From Nanohaloarchaea archaeon B1-Br10_U2g1 (lineage in GTDB: Archaea > Nanohalarchaeota > Nanosalinia > Nanosalinales > Nanosalinaceae): DNA of 64,000 nucleotides. Of this stretch, positions 7,946-11,187 are shown one piece after another. Each line of letters opens with the position of its first letter. Position 1 is the stretch's first letter. Where the stretch lies: NCBI GenBank assembly GCA_001563875.1, contig LKMN01000001.1, positions 62,001-126,000 of the forward strand, read 5' to 3'. The notes below the pieces were generated by a model, which worked only from the letters and a program-made list of their open reading frames with translations, was not told the DNA's origin and ran no database searches. The position numbers and the translations under genes were made by a program.

Positions 7946-8671
7946 ATGCAAGATATGGCAGATCCTTTATATCTCCCTGATAGAGAGTACCGGAAGAAGT
8001 TTGAATCCTCAGTAGTGAAAGTAGAGTCTGATGGAAGCTACATAGTACTTCAAGAGACTCTTTTCTATAAGGAGGGAGGAGGACAACCCTCAGACAAGGG
8101 AAAAATTTACTGGAAAAACAAAGAATCTGAAGTAGTCGACGTTCAGAGAGAGGATGGAGAGGTAAGACATTACATTAAGGGACAGCTGCCTAAGCCTGGA
8201 GAGAAAGTCAAAGGAGAGATAGAATGGGATAGACGTTACAAACATATGAGAATGCATACTGCGCAACACTTAATATCTTGGATCGTTCTGAACATGTACG
8301 GAGCCTCAACAGCCGGAAATCAGATACATGAGGACTACTCTCGTATCGATTTCAAACCTGTAGAGTTCTCAGAAAGAGATGTAGAGAAGATTGAGAAAGC
8401 TGCAAATTCGCTTATAAAGAAAGAGCTTGGAGTCCAGAAGAAGATGATGGACAGAGAACAACTCGAACAGCAAGTAAAGGACGGAAGAACGAAACTTGAC
8501 ATAATACCGGATCATATCGATCCTTTAAGGATAGTAGTTATAGGAGGCGAAGATATCTGTCCTTGTGGAGGCACGCATGTGGATAACCTTGAAGAGATCG
8601 GAGAAATCGAGATAACAGATCGGAAGAGTAAAGGCTCAGATACTGAAAGAATAAAGTTCGAGCTGGCCTAG
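7946..8671 (+). CDS. alaX: Alanyl-tRNA editing protein AlaX
   Basis: A free-standing relative of the AlaRS editing domain that hydrolyses Ser- or Gly-tRNA(Ala) in trans. The 241 residues contain the LFYKEGGGQPSD loop, the zinc ligands HTAQH and the second site CPCGGTHV, all in the usual order. The length fits AlaX-M. A second in-frame ATG (7955) gives an N-terminus three residues shorter, and either is plausible. It overlaps the convergent neighbour by 4 nt. Together with the YbaK-type fusion at 17.9 kb it shows investment in removing wrongly charged tRNA. Confidence 0.92.
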   Translation: MQDMADPLYLPDREYRKKFESSVVKVESDGSYIVLQETLFYKEGGGQPSDKGKIYWKNKESEVVDVQREDGEVRHYIKGQLPKPGEKVKGEIEWDRRYKHMRMHTAQHLISWIVLNMYGASTAGNQIHEDYSRIDFKPVEFSERDVEKIEKAANSLIKKELGVQKKMMDREQLEQQVKDGRTKLDIIPDHIDPLRIVVIGGEDICPCGGTHVDNLEEIGEIEITDRKSKGSDTERIKFELA

Positions 8672-9375
8672 TAAAGATAGCTGTCAGAGGTCTTTAATCT
8701 GTCTTCAATAAAGCTATCTTTGTACCATTCGTCTATATCTGTAGTGTTTGGTCTTTCTCCATATGCTTCAGTCCATTCCCAATAACAGTAACCATTATTG
8801 TTGAAGGTTATTTCCTCTTTTACTTTTTCTACAGGCAAAATTAGCTCTCCGATTAAGGCAGATTCAATTTCCGGACTTAGAGGCTCTAAAGGTACGCTGA
8901 AATCTTGTTCGAAATCTTTCTCAAAATCAGAACGAGGGTAATGGACTACAGTATGGAGTAGAGAATCTCTCTCAGCCAGTTTATTTATAGAGTTCTCTCT
9001 CATGTAGATTCCTCCTGGTCTGGAGTACCAGTTCCCAGTACCATCCTGGCCTTGGCTTACTAATACGGCAGCTCCTTTCGCCTGAACCTCTATATCTTCA
9101 AAGGCTCCGTCTTTGACTACGAGGTCTATACATCCATTGTTAACACGCTCCATGTTGTAGTTTTCCTCAAGATATCTCTCAACCATGTCACCTATACCTT
9201 CAGTATATCGGTCTAGATCTGGTCTACCCCACTCTTCCCTCTTATCTGCAGGCCTTTTCTCAAGAGGTCTGACAGAGTTTTTGGTTCTATTGTTCATGAC
9301 AAAGTAGGGATGCCAAGGTCTATAGGATCCGCCGAGCTCAGAATATAGCTTGTTTATCGTCTCTGTCCCTGTCAT
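8668..9375 (-). CDS. Uncharacterised protein with a possible PD-(D/E)xK-like core
   Basis: 235 residues of no family I recognise. Residues about 103-120 read IDLVVKDG...IEVQAKG, an Asp followed on the next strand by Glu-x-Gln-x-Lys. This resembles the active-site strands of restriction-endonuclease-like nucleases, but the Gln position is unusual and the match may be chance. There is no signal peptide or membrane helix. Its stop lies within the end of alaX (4-nt overlap), and ABCE1 follows downstream on the same strand. Confidence 0.6.
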   Translation of the reverse strand: MTGTETINKLYSELGGSYRPWHPYFVMNNRTKNSVRPLEKRPADKREEWGRPDLDRYTEGIGDMVERYLEENYNMERVNNGCIDLVVKDGAFEDIEVQAKGAAVLVSQGQDGTGNWYSRPGGIYMRENSINKLAERDSLLHTVVHYPRSDFEKDFEQDFSVPLEPLSPEIESALIGELILPVEKVKEEITFNNNGYCYWEWTEAYGERPNTTDIDEWYKDSFIEDRLKTSDSYLY

Positions 9376-9402: not shown

Positions 9403-11187
9403 CTATTCTTCGTAGTACTCATCTCTCTTCCTCTGTTCCTTATCTTTCTGGCTGTCTGGCTTGTTCGCTCTTGGTCTGCCTGTCTCTGGGTCTTTCCGGA
9501 AGGTGACACCCACTTCTTTCAGGAAATCATTTACTGCTTCACCTATCTTCATTGGCTTGGTCGATTTCCCGTGTTCTCCGGACTCACCTTTGAATACTAT
9601 CCCTCTATCTGCCATATAGTCAAGCATTAGCAGATCGTGGTCAATAATCATCAATGGTTTCTCTGTTTTTCTTGCATAGTTTTTCAACATCTTGCCAAGT
9701 TTTACACGTGATTCAACATCCAAGTATGCTGAAGGCTCATCCAAGAGATACAGGTCCGCGTCTTTAGCTAGACAGATCGCTATTCCTACTTTCTGTAGTT
9801 CTCCACCTGAAAGTTCGTTAAGGTTTTTCTCGTATAGTTTTTCTAGTTCCAAAGGTTTTGCTATACGGTTCTCAAACCTTTTGTTATCAAGGGAGGTATG
9901 CTGTGATACTACATTCGCTACAGTTGTGTTAGAGGACTCTAGGTACTGTGGTTTGTACGAGATTGATAGGTCTAGAGCTTCTCCATTGTCCGGGCTTATT
10001 GCTCCGGCCAACATCTTTGCGAAAACCGTTTTTCCTAGCCCGTTTTCTCCAAAGATTGCAAGAATCTCTTCTTCATGTATACTGCCGGGAGCAGTCTCAA
10101 GTTCGAACTCGTTTTCTCCAAAGTCTTTCCTCATCTCTGGGAACTCGGCAACAGTTTCTTTCCTCTCAACTTGTGATCTTTTGGAACGGTCAAACTTTAT
10201 CTCGTCGGCTCTGAAACGGACGTTGTGGGTTGGAAGGTAGCCTTCTAAGTAACGGTTTACTCCTTCCTTACTTGACAGAGAGTCGGACACCATCCCGTAG
10301 CTGGCTTGATCTCCGTAGAAGATATGTATGTTGTCTGAGATCAGGTCCAGTGTAGCCAGATCGTGTTCTACAGCCATAACACTTTTCTTCTCTCCAAGCT
10401 TCCGAATTTCTCTACCGGTCTTAAGTCTCTGTTTAACGTCTAGGAAGGACGACGACTCGTCGAACATGTAGAGATCTGCGTCTTTAAGTATGGTCGAGGC
10501 TATTGCGACCCGCTGTAGTTCTCCGCCTGAGAGCTGTTCGAGCTTTCTATCCAGTAAATGAGCTATGTCAAGTTTTTCTGCAACTTCGTTGAGCTGTTCT
10601 TCATCGATATTTTCTAAAAGTTCTTGGACCTTACCGCTGTATACATCAGGTAGCTTTTCAACCTGTTGTGGCTTATAAGCCGATTTTACGTCTTCTTCAA
10701 GTTTCTCAAAATGTGTCTGTAGCCCTGTACCCCTGAACTCTTTAGTTACCTCTTCAAGTTTAGGAGGGTCTTCGTAATCTCCAAGGTTGGGTAGTATGTC
10801 GCCACTAAGTATCTTAAGTGAAACAGATTTTCCTATACCGTTTTTACCTATCATCCCTACTACTCGGCCACTGTCTGGCACAGGCAAGCCATAAAGTCTG
10901 AAACTGTTTTCGCCGAACTGATGGATTTTCTCCCCTTTTTCGTGAGGGAGCTGTATCATCTTTATAGCGTCATCGTAGGGATACTTGTTAATAGCCATCT
11001 TATGAGCTTCCATCACGTCTTCATCATCTATATGTAGCTCTCCTTCCTCTGTGAGGTAGAAACCTCCTTCTTTCCCCGCTCTATTTAAAGGATCAAAGTT
11101 GATTACGGTCTCTCTAGCTAAATCAGGCTCTATCTGTTCCTGATCGACTACTACAATAAATTTTTTCGAGTTTTTGTCAGTAGACAT
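9403..11187 (-). CDS. rli1: ABCE1/Rli1 ribosome-recycling ATPase lacking all Fe-S cysteines
   Basis: ABCE1 splits ribosomes after termination. Both nucleotide-binding domains are intact: Walker A GKNGIGKS (about 113) and GENGLGKT (about 379), two LSGGELQ signatures (about 219 and 459), Walker B with FDESSSFLDV and LDEPSAYLDV, and H-switches VEHD and IDHD. The N-terminal 80 residues align well with the ABCE1 ferredoxin domain (FIVVVDQEQIEPD..., NRAGKEG, YDDAIKMIQLP), but every one of the eight cysteines that bind two 4Fe-4S clusters is replaced; the only cysteine in the protein is near residue 473. NBD1 also has Ser for the usual Pro in the DEP motif. The C-terminus carries a charged tail. The gene is full length, not broken. 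Confidence 0.93.
   Translation of the reverse strand: MSTDKNSKKFIVVVDQEQIEPDLARETVINFDPLNRAGKEGGFYLTEEGELHIDDEDVMEAHKMAINKYPYDDAIKMIQLPHEKGEKIHQFGENSFRLYGLPVPDSGRVVGMIGKNGIGKSVSLKILSGDILPNLGDYEDPPKLEEVTKEFRGTGLQTHFEKLEEDVKSAYKPQQVEKLPDVYSGKVQELLENIDEEQLNEVAEKLDIAHLLDRKLEQLSGGELQRVAIASTILKDADLYMFDESSSFLDVKQRLKTGREIRKLGEKKSVMAVEHDLATLDLISDNIHIFYGDQASYGMVSDSLSSKEGVNRYLEGYLPTHNVRFRADEIKFDRSKRSQVERKETVAEFPEMRKDFGENEFELETAPGSIHEEEILAIFGENGLGKTVFAKMLAGAISPDNGEALDLSISYKPQYLESSNTTVANVVSQHTSLDNKRFENRIAKPLELEKLYEKNLNELSGGELQKVGIAICLAKDADLYLLDEPSAYLDVESRVKLGKMLKNYARKTEKPLMIIDHDLLMLDYMADRGIVFKGESGEHGKSTKPMKIGEAVNDFLKEVGVTFRKDPETGRPRANKPDSQKDKEQRKRDEYYEE

Follow-up and report, generated by a model that had tools for sequence, protein, structure and literature searches.

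A conserved ABCE1 without iron-sulfur cluster cysteines in two families of Nanohaloarchaeota

The single ABCE1 (Rli1) protein encoded in a 64,000-nucleotide stretch of the Nanohaloarchaea archaeon B1-Br10_U2g1 genome (assembly GCA_001563875.1, contig LKMN01000001.1, positions 62,001 to 126,000; hereafter the window) has none of the eight cysteines that hold the two [4Fe-4S] clusters of this protein elsewhere. All eight ligands are gone in 21 of 21 homologues drawn from two families (19 genomes of the window's own family, f1, and two of family f5), several of which are complete single-contig assemblies. This conserved cluster-free variant is real and, as far as the open-access literature shows, new: no earlier report of a cluster-free ABCE1 in nanohaloarchaea or other DPANN archaea was found there. 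We think it probable that the variant works as an ABCE1 without metal, a protein core having taken the place of both clusters, and that the clusters thus serve as scaffold and not as machinery.

Results

Over residues 11–593, the window protein scored 704 bits against the NCBIfam profile NF009945 (RLI, cut-off 469), and it could be aligned with solved ABCE1 structures across residues 8–592. Its closest named relatives were Nanohaloarchaea metagenome-assembled genomes (MAGs), with 63–73% identity. The whole-length profile match, the motifs of two nucleotide-binding domains (NBDs) and orthology in the protein tree were all found, and the eight-cysteine feature was not. Judged by homology, the protein belongs to ABCE1, but it falls short on the clusters, one of the classical hallmarks of the family. 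A search for a second ABCE1 across the genome around the window (709,831 bases, 96.75% complete), suggested as a check by an earlier sequence-only reading of this stretch, found none; two further matches were ordinary ABC ATPases with 24–28% identity.

Cysteine positions were compared in an alignment of Nanohaloarchaeota members with 80 named archaeal loci, using Pyrococcus furiosus (Pfu) ABCE1 as a ruler; the genomes compared are mostly MAGs, and the 80 loci were picked by similarity to the query and do not constitute a census of archaea. At the eight canonical positions the window protein carries I19, A24, V28, D32, M59, H62, A65 and Y69, so that the loss of every cluster cysteine claimed by the sequence-only reading holds, and does so family-wide; the spacing of the second motif (C-x2-C-x2-C-x3-C) is unchanged despite the loss. 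The same reading had placed the only cysteine of the 594-residue protein near residue 473; it is indeed single, and its exact position is 472. The ligand string was IAVDMHAY with at most one change in 19/19 f1 genomes, and VVADMHII in 2/2 f5 genomes. A Pfam scan of the window protein returned neither Fer4 nor Fer4_RLI, as was also the case for the f5 protein, and both domains were detected in the sister-family ABCE1 of genome G001 (family f2).

In bacterial-type two-cluster ferredoxins, ligands 1, 2, 3 and 8 bind cluster I and ligands 4, 5, 6 and 7 bind cluster II. C25 and C61 of yeast Rli1, the third and seventh ligands when counted on alignments, were reported to bind different clusters (PMC4523923), which agrees with this division. 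Sorted accordingly, the former cluster-I positions of the Cys-free proteins hold I/V/L, A/V, V/A and Y/I, and the former cluster-II positions hold invariant D, M and H plus A/I; D32, M59 and H62 (C4, C5 and C6) were identical in all 21 homologues of both families. This pattern suggests a hydrophobic core where cluster I would sit and a conserved polar pair where cluster II would.

The presence of CCCCCCCC at the ligand positions was recorded for f2 (G001), Nanohalarchaeota CSMAG_1788, haloarchaea and nearly all other archaea sampled; four of the 78 other archaeal sequences departed from the full set of eight cysteines. The comparison with other nanohaloarchaea and haloarchaea yielded the same loss in all 21 homologues of f1 and f5, so that a local error is not the cause, and haloarchaea that retain all eight. 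Three of the four exceptions, from two Woesearchaeota and one Nanoarchaeota MAG (L085, L091 and L107; L/I-Q/K-I-CCCC-A), lack exactly ligands 1, 2, 3 and 8 and keep ligands 4–7, meaning that one whole cluster (cluster I) was lost and that clusters can be dropped singly. The fourth exception has a single change: in the ABCE1 of Thorarchaeota L141 (SDNP01000003.1) the sixth ligand cysteine is replaced by alanine (CSGAAMC), which may be a sequence error or may reflect a three-ligand cluster.

A maximum-likelihood tree built from 44 ABCE1 proteins nested the window protein beside those of G001, CSMAG_1788 and Aenigmatarchaeota (support 98/94 and 96/88), the order being Aenigmatarchaeota, CSMAG_1788 and G001, each with eight cysteines, followed by f5 and f1 with none. 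The two Cys-free families share one branch with support of 100/99, which indicates that the Cys-free form arose once and was passed on by vertical descent. The one-cluster sequences formed a separate clade elsewhere in the tree (100/98) and are thus of independent origin.

Mean pairwise identity within f1 was 0.75 in the former iron-sulfur (FeS) domain, 0.63 in NBD1 and 0.67 in NBD2, making the former FeS domain the best-conserved part of the protein. Where synonymous divergence (dS) was unsaturated, the ratio of nonsynonymous to synonymous divergence (dN/dS) of the domain was 0.019–0.044, values that are rough because they come from simple Nei-Gojobori counts on a short domain with high dS. 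The Cys-free domain is more strongly constrained than the ATPase portions and has not decayed; its high identity and low dN/dS mark it as functional and not as a relic. A sequencing or assembly error, a chimera, or a pseudogene lying beside a canonical copy was rejected, and we give such explanations negligible weight: the same substitutions occur in 21 independent assemblies, the frames are open and free of stops, and a second copy was not found.

The AlphaFold2 model of the complete protein had a mean predicted local distance difference test score of 85.9, and that of residues 1–90 alone reached 82.3; helices and strands followed the ferredoxin-like order. Among PDB entries, the full model matched the complete ABCE1 3bk7 best (597 columns, template modelling (TM) score 0.82), and the domain alone retrieved ABCE1 FeS domains first (probability 1.00, TM 0.66–0.67, E ~0.02) and ferredoxins next. 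As expected from the sequence-only reading, the N-terminal domain aligns with ABCE1, through residues 9–80, and the modelling that it recommended gave a predicted domain closing into the ABCE1 ferredoxin-like fold. Since E-values are weak for so short a domain and AlphaFold2 models no cofactors, these results support the fold and do not prove metal-free stability. The claim of the sequence-only reading that the fold is retained without metal is thus borne out for the predicted fold and otherwise stays a prediction, as a possible non-cysteine ligand set (D32, M59, H62) is conserved. A mononuclear metal ion held by these three residues, which occupy three of the four positions that once served cluster II, nevertheless appears distinctly improbable. 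Their identity in 21 homologues of two families that have diverged elsewhere in the domain would fit such a site, as would the restriction of the former cluster-I positions to hydrophobic residues, but C7, with A or I, offers no evident fourth ligand, and a hydrogen bond between D and H explains the conservation equally well.

Both ATPase sites are intact, as had been claimed, with the Walker A motifs GKNGIGKS and GENGLGKT, YKPQ in the Q-loops, two LSGGELQ signatures, the D-E pair in each Walker B motif and the H-switches. The sequence DESS noted for DEPS in NBD1 is real but limited to this genus (G000 and G010), other relatives having DEPS with the exception of G023 (DEPG). A structure of archaeal ABCE1 on the 30S subunit shows its FeS domain touching ribosomal RNA (rRNA) via R2, K15, N17, E19 and K59 and uS12 via P25, R28 and S29 (PMC7196836). 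Contact positions were scored in Sulfolobus solfataricus (Sso) numbering, leaving out N17 because of an alignment gap. The uS12-contacting P33 and R36 (Sso P25 and R28) were invariant, and Sso S29 was A or S. Genes of aRF1 and Pelota type are present, the eRF1_2 family matches of G000 lying in three frames (436, 334 and 314 amino acids).

Other iron-sulfur proteins of the lineage were affected unevenly. SufB/SufD-type matches were found in 21/21 f1 and f5 genomes, the SufB, D, S, U and C genes lying side by side in G000, and the CxxxCxxC motif of Elp3, the conserved cysteines of Dph2 and, in most f1 genomes, those of the XPD-type helicase are retained. In the single-chain PriS-PriL primase, the four PriL cluster cysteines are kept in f2 (G001, L181) and replaced by T, Y, Y, E in f1 (locus G000:C9:12426-13778, L161) and by T, W, Y, T in f5, with non-cysteine residues also in f4 and f3; the primases of f1, f5 and f2 share a C-terminal zinc-finger-like CxxC...H...C motif. 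With the ligands of ABCE1 and primase gone and the cysteines of Elp3, Dph2 and the XPD-type helicase kept alongside the SUF genes, the loss was selective and concerned two essential housekeeping clusters. Fer4-type proteins were searched for in the f1 and f5 genomes and found in 0/21, compared with seven matches in G001. In the latter genome (93% complete), SufB/SufD was not found, despite the seven Fer4 matches and a canonical ABCE1.

A general abandonment of iron-sulfur chemistry in reduced genomes would account for the missing Fer4-type proteins and for the loss of the PriL cysteines in f1, f5, f4 and f3; it is, however, highly improbable, and as a complete loss it is largely refuted by the retained SUF genes and Elp3, Dph2 and XPD-type cysteines. 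Provision of the FeS domain by a separate protein was rejected, there being no Fer4 match in any f1 or f5 genome. General avoidance of cysteine was likewise rejected, as open reading frames (ORFs) of the window contain 0.74% cysteine and proteins of zinc-finger type are encoded adjacent to the gene.

ABCE1 is generally regarded as present in all archaea. Family f4 (G003–G007; five genomes in three genera, 80–91% complete) gave no ABCE1 in any of its five genomes when searched with the profile and with the nearest (f5) protein, the best matches being ordinary ABC ATPases (L045–L049). These genomes also lack SufB/D and Dph2, and clear aRF1/Pelota-type matches were found in four of the five. The primase tree placed this family together with f5, at modest support (86/86). 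We also observed 14–17 radical-SAM matches in three of the five f4 genomes.

The features of the gene are collected in Table 1. Immediately downstream of it on the same strand lies an ORF of 235 amino acids (window positions 8668–9375, minus strand), for which Pfam gave no match at E 0.01.

Table 1 Features of the ABCE1 gene, in window coordinates
Feature	Position	Strand	Basis or remark
ABCE1/Rli1 gene	9403..11187	(-)	ATG start, 594 aa; only ABCE1 in genome; C472 codon 9772-9774
N-terminal ferredoxin-like (FeS) domain, residues 9-80, zero Cys	10948..11163	(-)	Alignment and predicted fold
First ligand motif: I19, A24, V28, D32 at C1-C4	11092..11133	(-)	Alignment
Second ligand motif: M59, H62, A65, Y69 at C5-C8	10981..11013	(-)	Alignment
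NBD1, approximately residues 88-320, ATPase motifs intact	10228..10926	(-)	Sequence motifs
Hinge 1, NBD2 and hinge 2, residues 321-594, ATPase motifs intact	9406..10227	(-)	

Discussion

The Cys-free protein likely works like ABCE1. The cell's sole ribosome-recycling ABCE1 would then operate iron-free: its lever domain, which moves toward h44, h5-h15 and uS12 as the subunits are split, would keep its ferredoxin-like shape, hydrophobic side chains filling the cluster-I site (I19, A24, V28 and Y69; V, V, A and I in f5) and conserved D32/M59/H62 plus A65 or I filling the cluster-II site. As elsewhere among archaea, splitting would be driven by ATP binding and NBD closure, with aRF1 or Pelota taking part. 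We infer both the metal-free folding of the domain and ribosome splitting by the Cys-free protein.

Several points weigh against a working metal-free ABCE1. Single Cys-to-Ser mutants of either cluster in yeast are inviable in air, and combining the two mutations is lethal even when oxygen is absent (PMC4523923), which means that cluster loss by itself kills the canonical protein. Some of the residues facing rRNA are altered (Sso R2 to F/Y, K15 to L, E19 to T and N70 to Q/R). AlphaFold2 knows the ABCE1 fold and is unable to judge its stability without cofactor. Finally, the lack of ABCE1 in f4 may mean that dependence on this protein has been relaxed in the lineage.

The altered rRNA contacts, together with a related lineage that appears to recycle ribosomes without ABCE1 while keeping aRF1/Pelota-type genes in 4/5 genomes, would also suit a protein that no longer splits ribosomes and has a narrower role, such as holding 30S apart, initiation or assistance in release, leaving splitting to Pelota and initiation factors or to another ATPase. 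We consider this unlikely, as conservation is strong in the domain and at both ATP sites, the proline/arginine pair contacting uS12 is invariant, and a replacement recycling factor was not identified. The f4 absence, if real, would place cluster loss before gene loss in the sister line. A stepwise exit of Nanohaloarchaeota, first from ribosome recycling that needs iron-sulfur clusters and in the end from ABCE1, with two clusters in the deep family f2, a cluster-free and perhaps differently working protein in f1 and f5, and no ABCE1 but another splitting route in f4, is a tentative possibility that we regard as rather doubtful.

If, as we favour, the metal-free ABCE1 is functional, the loss probably freed these cells, fermenters that depend on a host and live in oxic brines, from having to keep an abundant and essential protein stocked with labile clusters. 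Cultivated nanohaloarchaea are described as strictly fermentative, yet dependent on an aerobic host and subject to oxidative stress (PMC10266531). Cluster delivery to Rli1 is an oxygen-sensitive weak point in yeast (PMC4523923), and dropping the clusters would have removed it. ABCE1 is basic (KR > DE) in the Cys-retaining families of Nanohaloarchaeota and acidic in the Cys-free ones, a division that matches the published split of the phylum into geothermal and hypersaline groups (PMC9563170). Hypersalinity alone was rejected as the cause, because the acidic ABCE1 of haloarchaea (Natrinema, Haloarcula) keeps all eight cysteines.

Comparison with known systems

The supply of clusters to ABCE1 is a standard explanation for the dependence of cells on cluster-making machinery. 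A natural cluster-free ABCE1 makes it directly testable whether the clusters are mechanism, sensor or scaffold, and offers a case of evolution swapping a [4Fe-4S] core for side chains, with a parallel case in this lineage's replication primase.

Compared with canonical archaeal and eukaryotic ABCE1 (RNase L inhibitor; Pyrococcus abyssi 3bk7, S. solfataricus 6tmf), the nanohaloarchaeal protein lacks the eight cysteines and has several changed rRNA-facing residues in the FeS domain. The one-cluster ABCE1 of Woesearchaeota and Nanoarchaeota is likewise a natural loss of ligands in an otherwise complete protein; it differs in keeping C4–C7, so that one cluster should remain, and in belonging to a separate clade. 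The ABC-F ribosome ATPases (EttA and others) are also soluble twin-NBD proteins that act on the ribosome without Fe-S clusters, but they have no ferredoxin-like lever domain, share only 16–21% identity with the window protein and fall under the NCBIfam cut-offs.
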